Part shown: in pieces, positions 9,052 to 24,758 of the stretch | Layout of the letters: the number at the start of each line of letters is the position of its first letter | Position numbering within the stretch: the first letter of the stretch is position 1 | DNA from: Candidatus Poribacteria bacterium | Lineage (GTDB): Bacteria > Poribacteria > WGA-4E > WGA-3G | Direction of reading: 5' to 3' | Assembly: GCA_022822215.1 (NCBI GenBank) | Contig: JAJECD010000194.1 | Coordinates: 1 to 32,733, forward strand | Length of the DNA: 32,733 nt | Made by a program: the position numbers and the translations under genes | The notes under the pieces: model-generated | Databases searched by the model: none | What the model was told of the DNA's origin: nothing | Seen by the model: only the letters and a program-made list of their open reading frames with translations

Positions 9052-10461
9052 TTAACCCACAATGAGGGGCAGCTGCTCCGAAGGCTCGTCCACAAACGGG
9101 ATTGGATATTCTCCATCAAAACAGGTGGTACAAAAGTCTTTCGATGCCTTCACCGAGTTAAGCATGCCATCGATGCTCAGATAACCCAGACTGTCGGCAC
9201 GAATGTATTTGCGGATCTCTTCAATCGTGTGTGAACTGGCAATCAACTCGCCACGTGTAGGGGTATCCACACCATAGAAACATGAAAATTTATTCGGGGG
9301 GGAGGCAATACGGAGGTGTACAGCGGTCGCGCCGCCTTGCCGAACGATTTTGATGAGTTTCCTACTATTTGTCCCACGCATAATTGAATCGTCTACAAGC
9401 ACCACACGTTTGCCGCGGAGGACATCGCGTATCGGATTCAACTTTATTTTTACCATGAGTTCTCTGATATCCTGCGTCGGATTCATAAAAGAGCGTCCAA
9501 CGAAAGTATTTCGCGACAACCCTAAATCGAAAGGAATACCAGACTCCTCAGCATAGCCGAGGGCGGCAATCGTGGCAGAATCGGGGACCGGGATAACAAC
9601 ATCCGCTTTGACGGGGTGTTCACGGGCAAGCTGCCTACCGAACTCACGGCGCGTACTATTCACACTCTGACCGAACATCATACCATCCGGACGCGCCAGA
9701 TAGATATATTCAAAGATACACTGCGATAATTTCGGCTCTCGCCTACGAAAACAGAAGGACTCTACGCCGCGATGCGCAGAACGTATAAATATCAACTCAC
9801 CGGGTTCCACCTCGCGTATCGGTTCCGCTTCAATTACATCAAGCGCACACGTTTCGGACGCAAGGACATAAGCATCATCCAGCTTACCGAGCCAGAGTGG
9901 ACGGAATCCGTGCGCATCGCGCGCCCCTATGAGTGTATTTTTATCCATACATACGAACGAGTAAGCCCCTTCAATACCCCGAAGTGCCTCAATAATTCTA
10001 TTTTCCAAAACCTGCTTCCGCGAATGCGCTATGAGATGGAAAACGACCTCGGTATCCAGACTCGTGCTGAAGATTGAACCCGCATTCTCCAGATGGTTCC
10101 GAATGTACGATGAATTGACAAGATTGCCGTTATGACCAAGCGCAAGAGGCCCCTGTTTATAATTCCGAACCAGCGGCTGCGCGTTCTCCAGCGTACTTTC
10201 TCCTGCTGTTGAATATCGGTTGTGCCCAATAGCGATATGACCATTGAGCCTCGCTAAAACCTCAGTCGTAAAGACAGAATGGACAAGCCCCATGCCGTGG
10301 TGATACGTAAACTTTTCACCATCTGATGCGACAATCCCGCTGCTCTCTTGGCCGCGATGCTGAAGGGCACGTAACCCCAGATAGGTTAACTCTACCGCTT
10401 TTGGGTGACCGAAGACACCGAAGACACCGCATTCGTCCTTTGGTTTATCATCATATTGCAT
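9052..10461 (-). CDS. purF: amidophosphoribosyltransferase (Fe-S type with short propeptide)
   Basis: MQYDDKPKDECGVFGVFGHPKAVELTYLGLRALQHRGQESSGIV; Cys after 10-residue propeptide; PRPP motif VVLVDDSIMRGTNSRKLIKIVR; Cys pattern QCIFEYIYLARP / FSCFYGVDTP / FCTTCFDG as in Fe-S PurF enzymes. Confidence 0.97.
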   Translation of the reverse strand: MQYDDKPKDECGVFGVFGHPKAVELTYLGLRALQHRGQESSGIVASDGEKFTYHHGMGLVHSVFTTEVLARLNGHIAIGHNRYSTAGESTLENAQPLVRNYKQGPLALGHNGNLVNSSYIRNHLENAGSIFSTSLDTEVVFHLIAHSRKQVLENRIIEALRGIEGAYSFVCMDKNTLIGARDAHGFRPLWLGKLDDAYVLASETCALDVIEAEPIREVEPGELIFIRSAHRGVESFCFRRREPKLSQCIFEYIYLARPDGMMFGQSVNSTRREFGRQLAREHPVKADVVIPVPDSATIAALGYAEESGIPFDLGLSRNTFVGRSFMNPTQDIRELMVKIKLNPIRDVLRGKRVVLVDDSIMRGTNSRKLIKIVRQGGATAVHLRIASPPNKFSCFYGVDTPTRGELIASSHTIEEIRKYIRADSLGYLSIDGMLNSVKASKDFCTTCFDGEYPIPFVDEPSEQLPLIVG

Positions 10462-10469
10462 TTTTTTCT

Positions 10470-10603
10470 CAATTGCTCCTGGGCTGCGGCCGATGTCCTT
10501 GCAGATTCTAAATTGTTAAAAAACCATTTGTAACCTGAAGCAAGTTCTCTACTAAATTTTAAACCGGGGTGGACAACGGACACCCCGCTCAGATTTAATA
10601 GGT
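10470..10603 (+). repeat. paired-hairpin intergenic element, copy 1 (hairpin CGGGGTG-GACAACGGA-CACCCCG at 10565-10587)
   Basis: Gapless-to-near-gapless homology to copy 2 at 22411-22541 (linkers ...TTAAaAAACC.TTTG.AAC...GTTCT.TA....AATT.TA.A...); left hairpin GCTGC...GCAG weaker. Boundaries approximate; the left part extends slightly past the purF start region. Confidence 0.7.
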
Positions 10604-10611
10604 AAAAGTAT

Positions 10612-11154
10612 CTATCCGTGTTCTGCGCTGACTTTGGTATTTTCGGCGGATGCCAATCTGTATCCCAATATCGCGCCGATAGGAACAGCAAGAATATACC
10701 AAATCTCGACCGGCAAACCCAGCGACACCCACCCGCGCATCGGGAGCGAAACGACATACGCGATCGCCTTAAGCACCGGAAGCAGCATCGCCAGAATAAG
10801 GTTCGGTCTACCAAATATCTCCCACGGCACGTTAAGCAAGGCAAGCAAACCGACGACAGCTGGCGGCCCCAAAAATGCACCTGAGTAAAGCCGCTTTAAG
10901 GGGATGTTAACACCAAATCTTTGGCTCACAAAGCGTATACCTTGGCTCGCGCCCACAACCACCGTTCCGTACCAGACACTCAAGGAAATCAGGAGCAGCA
11001 AACCGACCCAGAAGCCGTGGCGGATCCGATCCCCGAGCAGCACTTGCCAAATAAAATTCTCAATTACCAACAAGCAGATCCAACCGCCTAACAGCCCAAC
11101 AATACTTCCAGCAGCAATTTGTCCAAGGGTTAATGTGACACTACTTTTTTTCAT
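10612..11154 (-). CDS. polytopic membrane protein of unknown function
   Basis: MKKSSVTLTLGQIAAGSIVGLLGGWICLLVIENFIWQ... several hydrophobic segments; first gene after a good promoter, upstream of purF. Confidence 0.65.
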   Translation of the reverse strand: MKKSSVTLTLGQIAAGSIVGLLGGWICLLVIENFIWQVLLGDRIRHGFWVGLLLLISLSVWYGTVVVGASQGIRFVSQRFGVNIPLKRLYSGAFLGPPAVVGLLALLNVPWEIFGRPNLILAMLLPVLKAIAYVVSLPMRGWVSLGLPVEIWYILAVPIGAILGYRLASAENTKVSAEHG

Positions 11155-20634: not shown

Positions 20635-20734
20635 GATTTTTAATCCATGAGCAATGAAGAGGCGTTTTTTATAGAGACAAAGGACGTAGTCCGCACCTAA
20701 ACCGACCTCACCGAACCGCAAGGAAAATTAAAAG

Positions 20735-21457
20735 ATGGACAAATACATACGAAACATCTACAGAGGTGTTTATACCGTTCTCGTAGGAATGCGGCTGACA
20801 ATCAGGCAGTTCTTTGAACCGAACGTCACACATCAATACCCGTATGAACACGACTATGAGAAGAAACGCAACGTTCGAGAGATCCCTAAAGGGTACCGCG
20901 GGCAGCTTTACAATCGGATTGAAGACTGTATCGGATGTAAAAAATGTGAGATGATTTGCCCAGTTGATTGCATTACGATTACTGGCACCAAACTCCCGAA
21001 AGGCGAACAGCTGTGGGATAGCATGAACATCGTGCACCTCAAAGACGGACGAGAAGTGATTGGTATCATTGAAGGCGATGACAAAAAGATAAAAGCCGCA
21101 GATTCAATAACTGTTACGAATATCTCCTCTCGCCAAGGGGCCCAGGAAGTTATAGACCGCCTTGAGCCATCAGGTGTTGAGAATCGAACCGAGACCTTTT
21201 CCAATGACGAAGTATCGCGTGTGGTCACCCGAAATCCTGTTGTTTTTTATTTGGATCAGTTCGATATTGATATGTCCCTCTGTATGTATTGTGGACTTTG
21301 CACGGAAGTCTGCCCAACAGAATGCCTTACCATGAAGGATACACTCGAAGGCATTGAGTACTCCAAGTTCGACCGGTCAGATTTAATTTTTAAGTTCGAC
21401 AAACAGGAGATGTATACTCATAAAGACGGTAGCGAAGAGGTAGAAGCCGCAGATTAA
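20735..21457 (+). CDS. nuoI: NADH-quinone oxidoreductase subunit I, 2x[4Fe-4S], with long inter-cluster insertion
   Basis: CIGCKKCEMICPVDC and CMYCGLCTEVCPTEC separated by ~106 residues; position between nuoH and nuoJ. Confidence 0.9.
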   Translation: MDKYIRNIYRGVYTVLVGMRLTIRQFFEPNVTHQYPYEHDYEKKRNVREIPKGYRGQLYNRIEDCIGCKKCEMICPVDCITITGTKLPKGEQLWDSMNIVHLKDGREVIGIIEGDDKKIKAADSITVTNISSRQGAQEVIDRLEPSGVENRTETFSNDEVSRVVTRNPVVFYLDQFDIDMSLCMYCGLCTEVCPTECLTMKDTLEGIEYSKFDRSDLIFKFDKQEMYTHKDGSEEVEAAD

Positions 21458-21484
21458 CATTGAGAAATTTGCTCAAAACCAGCA

Positions 21485-21508
21485 GCACTGCAACAACGGC
21501 AGCAGTGC
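21485..21508 (+). repeat. intergenic hairpin GCACTGC-AACAACGGCA-GCAGTGC between nuoI and nuoJ
   Basis: Perfect 7-bp stem; loop AACAACGGCA resembles the GACAACGGA loops at 10572 and 22510. Confidence 0.55.
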
Positions 21509-21571
21509 GGACCTAAAAAAAGGATCTGCATGCCAACGAATCCAGATAATTCGCTTGCGTCAGTTTAAAAA

Positions 21572-22093: not shown

Positions 22094-22398
22094 CCTTACA
22101 ACACTATCTCGTCATCAGTGCTATTCTGTTCACGCTCGGTATTTTTGCTGTCTTAACCCGCCGGAACGCTATTAGCATTTTGATGGGTATTGAACTTATT
22201 CTCAACTCGTGTAATCTTAACTTTGCAGCGTTCGCGCGTTTTATGACACCACCAGAGGACATCAGTGGACAGATCATCGCAATTTTTGGGATCGTGCTTG
22301 CCGCCGCAGAAGCCGCTGTCTTTTTAGCAATTATTCTCGCTATCTACCGCGAATTCGGTAGCATCCGTCCTGATGAAGTGGACACTTTAAAAGGTTAA
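22090..22398 (+). CDS. nuoK: NADH-quinone oxidoreductase subunit K
   Basis: ISILMGIELILNSCNLNFAAFAR...IIAIFGIVLAAAEAAVFLAIILAIYR; 4-bp overlap with nuoJ. Confidence 0.97.
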   Translation: MTLQHYLVISAILFTLGIFAVLTRRNAISILMGIELILNSCNLNFAAFARFMTPPEDISGQIIAIFGIVLAAAEAAVFLAIILAIYREFGSIRPDEVDTLKG

Positions 22399-22410
22399 CT
22401 TTTTACCGAT

Positions 22411-22541
22411 AATTTCTGAGCTGCCCTCCGTTGCCAAGGCAGCTTTAGAATGCTTAAGAAACCTTTTTGAACAGCAGACAGGTTCTGTAACCAATTGTAG
22501 ATCGGTGTTGACAACGGAAACACCGCCCCGGAGCAATAGTT
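22411..22541 (+). repeat. paired-hairpin intergenic element, copy 2 (hairpins 22419-22444 and 22503-22525)
   Basis: AGCTGCC-CTCCGTTGCCAA-GGCAGCT and CGGTGTT-GACAACGGA-AACACCG in opposite orientation, linked by ~58 nt matching copy 1. Boundaries approximate. Confidence 0.7.
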
Positions 22542-22547
22542 AAAAAT

Positions 22548-24758
22548 ATGGTTGTACTCTTAATAAGTCTCATCTTGCTCTGTCCCCTCGCTGCCTTCGC
22601 GATCTTCGGACTTTTGGGCTTAGCGAAACGGAGTTTCCCGCGACAAGATTACCTATCCACAGCAGCGATGCTCATCGCACTCGTCTGCTCGCTTTTACTC
22701 TTGCAAGAGGTAGTCCCCGACCCAGAACCGCATACTGTTCAGTGGCTTTCGCTCGGTAGTGTTACCTTCTCGATGGGCTTTTACCTCGATAGCGTCACCG
22801 CAATCATGTTGATTGTTGTCACACTCGTCAGCAGCCTCGTCCATATCTTCTCCATGGGCTACATGCACGGCGATCCGAGGTATCCACGGTTTTTTGCTTT
22901 CCTCTCGCTCTTCTCCTTTTCGATGCTCTTCCTGGTTGTGTCAGATAACCTACTCGGTATCTATATCGGTTGGGAACTCGTCGGTCTCTGCTCCTATCTG
23001 CTCATCGGTTTCTGGTTTGAAAAGGACTCCGCAGCGGACGCCTGCAAAAAGGCGTTTCTGACGACGCGCGTCGGCGATGTCGGTATGTTCATCGGCATGA
23101 TGATGCTGTTCACTAAATTCGATACGCTTTCACTCTACGGAGAAGGCGGTATTTTCGCCCAAGCCGCTGTGCAACTCAACACAGGTGATATGATATGGCT
23201 CTCTATTGCCGGTGTCCTCATTTTCTGTGGCGCAGTCGGTAAATCCGCACAAGTCCCACTCCACACTTGGTTGCCCGATGCGATGGAAGGTCCTACACCC
23301 GTTAGTGCGCTGATTCACGCCGCGACAATGGTCGCTGCAGGTGTGTATCTCACGGCGCGGATGTTCCCAATTTTGACAGAAACCTCATCTCTGGTCATCG
23401 CCTATATCGGCGGTATTACCGCGATCATCGCTGCCACTATCGCTATCGTCCGCTTTGACATCAAGCGGGTCTTGGCATACTCCACAGTCAGCCAACTCGG
23501 ATACATGATGCTTGGGATCGGTGTAGGCAGTTACGTCGCTGGACTCTTTCACCTCACAACACACGCTTTTTTCAAGGCACTGCTCTTCCTCGGTTCTGGC
23601 AGTGTTATCCACGCTTTCCACGCAATGCATGGACACGGGCATGACGATGAACACGATGCACATGGACACGATCACGATGAGGATCACGGTTCAGAACATG
23701 TGCTCGGCTCTGAGATTCCACCGGACCAAGATATGCGGAATATGGGCGGACTCCGCCATAAGATGCCGATTACTTTCATAACGATGCTCATCGCAACGCT
23801 GTCTATCTCTGGTGTCCCATTTATCTTCTCCGGTTTCTGGAGTAAAGACGCAATCTTAGCTGGTGTACTGGGACGCGCAATGGAATGGAACTCCGTCCAC
23901 CATTATCTCCTGTTCGGCATGGCACTCTTTGCCGCTGGGATTACGGCGTTCTATATGTTCCGTCTCATTTTCATGACCTTTTTCGGTGAACCGCGTAATC
24001 AAGAGATGCACGACATGGCACACGAGTCTCCTAAAAGCATGACCGTGCCGCTCCTCGTCTTGGCTGTCCTGAGTTTTCCGGTCGTCAACACCCTCTGGTT
24101 CAACGCCGATTACGTTAAACCGCCAGAACAACCGCATTTACATGCCCCAGCACATGCGCACGTTTCACCCGATAGCAAAGTCGGTGAAGCCGGTCTCACT
24201 TTTTCACTCTTCGGAATTTCGGAAGCCGTTGCAGCAGAAGAAGGGGCAGACGGCACACACGGCGCACACGGAGATGACGCACATCACGGACACGGTCCCG
24301 CACACACCATTGCGATGGTCTTATCTATCATCGTCGCAGGGTTAGGTATACTGCTGTCATGGCTGTTCTACCATAGACGTACCTTGTCTGCTGAGTCTGT
24401 CGCAACGACTTTCCGTCCACTTTATACGCTTTTCTGGCACAAATACTATTTTGACGAGTTCTACAACGGTGTCTTAGTCGCCGTAACAGTATGGAAATCT
24501 CGACTCTTTGCCCAATTTGACGGAACTATCGTTGACGGCATCGTCAACGGGGTCGGAACGGTGACGCGAGACATACTCGCCGTATTCGTCGGCGTTTTTG
24601 ATAACCGTATTGTTGACGGTCTCGTCAATCGCGTTGCTGAGGTTACATGGTCTATCGGTGGAAGAGTCCGACAAATTCAGACAGGCGCGATTCAGACATA
24701 TCTCTTCGTCGTACTGGCAGGCATCGTGTTGTTAATCTTAATTTTCCGGGCGTTGTAA
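22548..24758 (+). CDS. nuoL: NADH-quinone oxidoreductase subunit L, with His-rich insertions
   Basis: FYLDSVTAIMLIVVTLVSSLVHIFSMGYMHGD...GWELVGLCSYLLIGFW...KSAQVPLHTWLPDAMEGPTPVSALIHAATMVAAGVYL. Confidence 0.97.
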   Translation: MVVLLISLILLCPLAAFAIFGLLGLAKRSFPRQDYLSTAAMLIALVCSLLLLQEVVPDPEPHTVQWLSLGSVTFSMGFYLDSVTAIMLIVVTLVSSLVHIFSMGYMHGDPRYPRFFAFLSLFSFSMLFLVVSDNLLGIYIGWELVGLCSYLLIGFWFEKDSAADACKKAFLTTRVGDVGMFIGMMMLFTKFDTLSLYGEGGIFAQAAVQLNTGDMIWLSIAGVLIFCGAVGKSAQVPLHTWLPDAMEGPTPVSALIHAATMVAAGVYLTARMFPILTETSSLVIAYIGGITAIIAATIAIVRFDIKRVLAYSTVSQLGYMMLGIGVGSYVAGLFHLTTHAFFKALLFLGSGSVIHAFHAMHGHGHDDEHDAHGHDHDEDHGSEHVLGSEIPPDQDMRNMGGLRHKMPITFITMLIATLSISGVPFIFSGFWSKDAILAGVLGRAMEWNSVHHYLLFGMALFAAGITAFYMFRLIFMTFFGEPRNQEMHDMAHESPKSMTVPLLVLAVLSFPVVNTLWFNADYVKPPEQPHLHAPAHAHVSPDSKVGEAGLTFSLFGISEAVAAEEGADGTHGAHGDDAHHGHGPAHTIAMVLSIIVAGLGILLSWLFYHRRTLSAESVATTFRPLYTLFWHKYYFDEFYNGVLVAVTVWKSRLFAQFDGTIVDGIVNGVGTVTRDILAVFVGVFDNRIVDGLVNRVAEVTWSIGGRVRQIQTGAIQTYLFVVLAGIVLLILIFRAL

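Follow-up and report, generated by a model that had tools for sequence, protein, structure and literature searches.

A dispersed palindromic repeat family at stop-to-start junctions of operons in a Candidatus Poribacteria genus

Mycobacterial interspersed repetitive units (MIRUs) are, according to a review (PMC12548453) that cites Supply et al. (1997), short mobile intergenic repeats located at start codons, where their insertion barely disturbs the gene. REP palindromes measure 20-40 bp and carry a GTAG or CGTC tag at one end (PMC3733652); unlike them, the element analysed here has a unit of ~147 bp and displays the consensus TTTTAGATCG beside its second hairpin. Mobile repeats are usually viewed as tolerated intergenic DNA, whereas at dozens of operon junctions the family described below is the entire spacer.

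Two of its copies lie in the window, that is, the whole 32,733-nt stretch of DNA analysed, which comes from an 84%-complete MAG. The paired hairpins observed there are confirmed as two copies of a real repeat family, previously unreported as far as the literature searched shows, a search on Poribacteria repeats having returned nothing relevant.

The two copies in the window

Copy 1 constitutes the whole spacer between purF and the minus-strand open reading frame (ORF) upstream of it, with the following features:

10463..10608, + strand (model orientation +): element copy 1, matching covariance model R1 at E=8e-29 and 123.7 bits
10463..10483, + strand: left terminal inverted repeat, degenerate, reading CCAGGAGCAATTGAGAAAAA on the minus strand
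10484..10504, + strand: hairpin 1, CTGC...GCAG, as seen in the sequence
10565..10587, + strand: hairpin 2, stem CGGGGTG/CACCCCG, loop GACAACGGA
10588..10608, + strand: right terminal inverted repeat CTCAGATTTAATAGGTAAAAG
9052..10461, - strand: purF (amidophosphoribosyltransferase; TIGR01134, 508 bits, cut-off 350)
10612..11154, - strand: upstream co-directional ORF, family not assigned, its TAG stop (10614-10612) 3 nt from the right end of copy 1

The left end of copy 1 lies 1 nt before the purF ATG (10461-10459), and the loop of its hairpin 1, GCCGATGTC, is at all but two positions the reverse complement of the loop in the right arm. Copy 2 is the complete nuoK-nuoL spacer:

22400..22546, + strand: element copy 2, matching model R1 at E=2.2e-28 and 122.1 bits
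22400..22419, + strand: left terminal inverted repeat, 1 nt past the nuoK stop (TAA, 22396-22398)
22420..22443, + strand: hairpin 1, GCTGCC...GGCAGC, loop region with TCCGTTGCC
22503..22525, + strand: hairpin 2, stem CGGTGTT/AACACCG, loop GACAACGGA
22526..22546, + strand: right terminal inverted repeat CCCCGGAGCAATAGTTAAAAA
22090..22398, + strand: nuoK (complex I chain 4L; PF00420), upstream gene
22548..24758, + strand: nuoL (TIGR01974/NF005141), downstream gene

The right repeat of copy 2 carries a Shine-Dalgarno-like GGAG (22530-22533), and the nuoL ATG stands at 22548. The preliminary description had placed copy 1 at 10470-10603, an interval that does hold a real element although it falls slightly short of its true extent, 10463-10608. 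The hairpins it gave as CGGGGTG-GACAACGGA-CACCCCG (10565-10587) and CGGTGTT-GACAACGGA-AACACCG (22503-22525) are present as claimed, their stems differing at two positions that are both compensated, and the second inverted hairpin that it reported (10484-10504 and 22420-22443) matches between the copies, as does the linker.

At the nuoKL junction the element is found in genome G000 and, in shortened versions, in G025, G008 and G031, while unrelated spacers occupy it elsewhere, the closest relative G012 included. Since the nuoK-nuoL spacer is wholly different among close species (four loci compared), palindromic CAGTTATCAGTTATCAG-type repeats being among the sequences found there, this junction turns over fast.

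Extent, anatomy and base pairing of the family

BLASTN with copy 2 does not return copy 1 among its matches; the two copies alone being too diverged for this method, the family was needed to prove their kinship. Covariance model R1, built from eight copies including both of the window, finds it, with ~62 matching places in the own genome (4.3-Mb assembly). The exact loop-plus-stem pattern occurs nine times in this genome and never in the reversed control, and terminal-repeat ends number 168, the control giving 29. That two loci resemble each other by chance, for which the lack of a direct BLASTN match might speak, is thus refuted by ~60 copies and by these controls and has practically no probability left; the family is dispersed and MITE-like, as had been proposed, and both further copies and covariation are found. 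Among 38 same-genus genomes, matches range from 0 to ~74 per genome (both strands counted) and 27 genomes are positive at E<=1e-4, whereas the model has no matches in eight genomes from other genera of the order. When 85,462 species genomes were scanned with the strict pattern, 40 stretches matched, and every one carries the title Candidatus Poribacteria. A viral carrier was rejected, the pattern having no matches among viral contigs, and an Rfam scan of the window gave only two tRNAs above gathering score, the element matching no family.

Aligned copies are imperfect palindromes of ~147 bp from terminal repeat to terminal repeat. Their terminal inverted repeats span ~21 bp (TTTTTAACGATT...TCTGAG / CTCAGA...AATCGTTAAAAA), and each arm holds one small hairpin, with loop TCCGTTGTC on the left and GACAACGGA on the right, the two loops being reverse complements because the element is palindromic. 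Read from the left, the element has the terminal repeat TTTTTAACGATTaaaTCTGAG, hairpin 1, then AATTGTTAAAAAACCT and AGGTTTCTTAACAATT, which form an inner inverted repeat enclosing CCTTTCATAACCTAAAGCAGG, followed by hairpin 2 and the right terminal repeat CTCAGATTTAATCGTTAAAAA. Some copies show a second hairpin class, with loop GAAACGNAGTGGA, and some contain inserted repeats (AATCAACGGTATGAATGCC...). Comparison of G000 with G012 reveals that internal parts have been lost from some elements with both ends kept (L172, L185, L196). A separate hairpin repeat, approximately GAATCAACGGTATGAATGCCGTGAGGCATTC, is inserted at one same site, beside hairpin 2, in copies at five loci, and two G012 loci (L334, L342) exhibit tandem partial duplications within the element, from TAACGATT/AACGATT of the left end, with intact flanks.

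Hairpin 2 had been described as a covarying stem around a conserved loop, and this holds across the family: its covariation is significant and its loop near-invariant, with more than 10 different perfect 7-bp stems surrounding one same loop. Paired cells reach 74% against 58% in shuffled alignments, and double-change cells 42 against 15, a value attained in 0 of 500 shuffles, these controls ignoring relatedness among copies. Treated as a stem, the terminal repeats display no covariation and their paired cells do not exceed those of shuffles, which dismisses a long-range RNA stem that would juxtapose stop and start codons. Whole elements folded as RNA do not outperform shuffled sequence (z -1.75, -0.38 and -0.10). 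Since hairpin 2 covaries, the terminal repeats do not and whole folds are ordinary, the constraint is local, on a hairpin presenting a fixed loop. A kissing-loop pairing of hairpins 1 and 2 was also discarded, several copies changing one loop and not the other.

Hairpins with a like loop also occur outside the family. At 21484-21509 of the window, GCACTGC-AACAACGGCA-GCAGTGC lies in the spacer that precedes the gene for complex I chain 6 (21572); it nearly shares the loop core ACAACGG with the element and is conserved in two other genomes, the spacer that holds it ending TTTAAAAA-ATG. Similarly, further genomes of the genus repeatedly carry AGCCTGC-AACAACGGC-GCAGGCG (four loci and others), with the same loop core and without the terminal repeats of the family.

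Placement at gene boundaries and fate of native spacers

Placement was evaluated on 63 copies, testing for each the best co-directional gene pair. As the mapping to gene ends proposed earlier would have it, the copies do sit there: in 42 of the 63 a downstream start codon stands within -1 to +4 nt of where the element ends, at exactly +1 in 28, and an upstream stop lies at -7 to +24 in 50, with a stop codon within the element in 31. Both conditions, at the script's own limits, coincide in 35/63. At non-orthologous loci of other genomes (n=21), starts fall at -2 to +3 in 15 and stops at -12 to +20 in 18. Both orientations occur (38 and 25), and both strands present the same architecture, the element being a palindrome. 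GGAG is found in 11 of 59 start-side ends versus 1 of 59 stop-side ends (p=0.004); in the smaller second set the bias (3/21 versus 1/21) is not significant. Some copies keep 10-16 nt between element and ATG (three loci), a native Shine-Dalgarno being included in part of them, so abutment to the ATG is not absolute. The flanking genes are core genes found across the genus, and the host operons are functionally diverse (purF and nuoKL among others).

Joined-flank searches in relatives, together with spacer comparison, were used to evaluate what the element displaced. The coding sequences of relatives with other spacers remain alignable position by position as far as the ends of the element, or to within a few bases of them. 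The native spacers of L176 (46 nt), L172 (37 nt), L170 (52 nt) and L164 (69 nt) are homologous in several relatives and entirely missing in the element-bearing genomes G000 and G012; a conserved purF leader, ending GCTGGAGGTTTCACCCGTCAAA-ATG, is also gone. The native spacers of L162 and L163 measure just 5-10 nt. Insertion only at pre-existing overlapping or near-zero stop/start sites is therefore dismissed, since four loci and purF lost conserved spacers of ~35-95 nt. Target-site duplications of 2-10 nt are not detectable, flank identity staying within the noise of shuffled pairs. Altogether, the comparison of relatives shows that the element has replaced the native stop-to-start spacer almost without remainder.

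Another, distinct spacer repeat was also noticed in the window, where CCGCAAGGAAAATTAAAA (20716-20733), directly before an ATG at 20735, matches its end; in relatives this repeat precedes start codons (two loci, for example), and in G010 it appears reversed, right after a stop codon.

Interpretation and comparison with known systems

We consider it probable, with some room for doubt, that the copies belong to a non-autonomous, palindromic, MITE-like family of one Candidatus Poribacteria genus living in operon stop-to-start junctions. They would be spread by mobilisation in trans, a putative enzyme recognising the hairpin loop and the terminal repeats; transposition is here deduced from dispersal, since neither a mobilising enzyme nor a target-site duplication was found. 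Neither an autonomous relative nor such an enzyme was identified in the 84%-complete MAG, and no parent transposon with matching ends appeared among the matches listed of the terminal-repeat scan of this MAG; the assembly being incomplete to that degree, absence of enzymes is weak evidence. The 5' end of the element closes the upstream reading frame, through stop codons lying inside it in about half of the copies, and its A-rich 3' end, sometimes bearing AGGAG next to the ATG, would probably serve initiation as a ribosome-binding region, because of which insertion would be near neutral for both genes. Since the element would thereby supersede the native spacer, the latter may have been lost upon its arrival or soon after, either by insertion beside the ATG and subsequent loss or by direct replacement through template switching. 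Operon junctions would be the only tolerated sites, or else targeted ones. That a selfish or domesticated element substitutes whole stop-to-start intervals with both frames intact, several unrelated spacer families of the genus perhaps behaving likewise, is a more tentative proposal, and one we hold as possible rather than likely.

Alternatively, the element could act at strand level as a regulatory RNA: a protein or small RNA would bind the GACAACGGA loop within mRNA leaders, with the ~60 operons forming a post-transcriptional regulon or sharing a translational-coupling device. The near-invariant loop with compensated stem changes, the position directly before start codons and between co-directional genes, the equal RNA architecture that a palindrome gives in either orientation, and the ACAACGG loop topping unrelated hairpins elsewhere in the genus are consistent with it. 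The preliminary description had likewise suggested a protein-binding RNA, of which the conserved loop and covarying stem stand, while folding of the whole element, no better than shuffled, does not bear it out. Moreover, copy number varies from 0 to 74 among species of one genus, orthologous operons lack the element, the operons hosting it have diverse functions, a change in one loop is not followed by one in the other that would restore loop-to-loop pairing, and quasi-palindrome template switching could also keep the stems complementary, all of which makes this explanation rather unlikely. About equally unlikely is an ectopic copying of entire stop-to-start spacers through template switching, without any transposition, with microhomology at A-rich/ATG and stop sequences and with palindromes favoured. 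It would account for native spacers fully replaced at gene boundaries without duplication, and other, unrelated spacer families in relatives do begin at stops or end TTAAAA-ATG; however, well-defined terminal repeats in all copies and the near-exact +1 spacing look like those of an element with ends, and the left junctions have no common microhomology.

The two inverted hairpins and linker resemble a REPIN (PMC3116915, PMC8266576), and a REP/REPIN doublet mobilised as single-stranded DNA by a Y1 (HUH) transposase would agree with the lack of target-site duplication and the presence of Y1_Tnp genes. Nevertheless, the REP-type membership raised in the preliminary description is not sustained: the three intact Y1 transposases of the genome are of the IS200/IS605 type by equivalog, the search for a RAYT gene yielded none above cut-off in the incomplete genome (31-35 bits versus 80), and no element lies near any of the three genes. 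The ~147-bp length and terminal inverted repeats also depart from a tagged palindrome of 20-40 bp, and insertion at a fixed site leaves the replacement of spacers unexplained, so this reading is distinctly improbable. An attC-like cassette junction of an integron is more improbable still, to the point of hardly deserving consideration. The ends of attC sites read RYYYAAC...GTTRRRY; those of the element, TTTAAC...GTTAAA, recall them, and its ORF-abutting position is cassette-like, but the genes flanking it are core across the genus rather than cassettes, and no integron integrase was found, the only two Phage_integrase proteins (Xer-like tyrosine recombinases) scoring 44-49 bits against the TIGR02249 cut-off of 265.

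At the junctions it occupies, the family supplies the stop codons itself, and probably the region where translation starts as well, in place of native leaders, that of purF included. How operon spacers originate, and how mobile sequence can rewire translation starts harmlessly, thus become directly testable questions, and the variety of perfect stems enclosing an invariant loop offers a clean natural experiment for finding the protein that recognises it.

Regarding known systems, the element shares with REP, BIME and REPIN sequences an inverted pair of small hairpins, a conserved motif, compensated stems and an extragenic location, and differs from them in being larger, having terminal inverted repeats, standing right at start codons between co-directional genes and lacking a RAYT above cut-off. 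Like attC sites, it is an imperfect palindrome between consecutive ORFs with AAC...GTT ends; unlike them, it resides in housekeeping operons instead of cassette arrays, and no integron integrase accompanies it. With MITEs (e.g., Correia/NEMIS) it has in common a length of ~150 bp, terminal inverted repeats, dispersal in tens of copies (~62 places here) and an intergenic location, while the absence of target-site duplication, the lack of a parent IS among the matches listed and the strict stop-to-start placement set it apart. By analogy, it would work like MIRUs, being inserted at start codons within operons, a likeness of habit that implies no relatedness: MIRUs have a small ORF and a -4 spacing that couples it to the downstream gene, whereas here a palindrome bearing hairpins and terminal inverted repeats takes the place of long native spacers. 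The best reading is hence a family built like a MITE that behaves like a MIRU, its unusual feature being the replacement of spacers.
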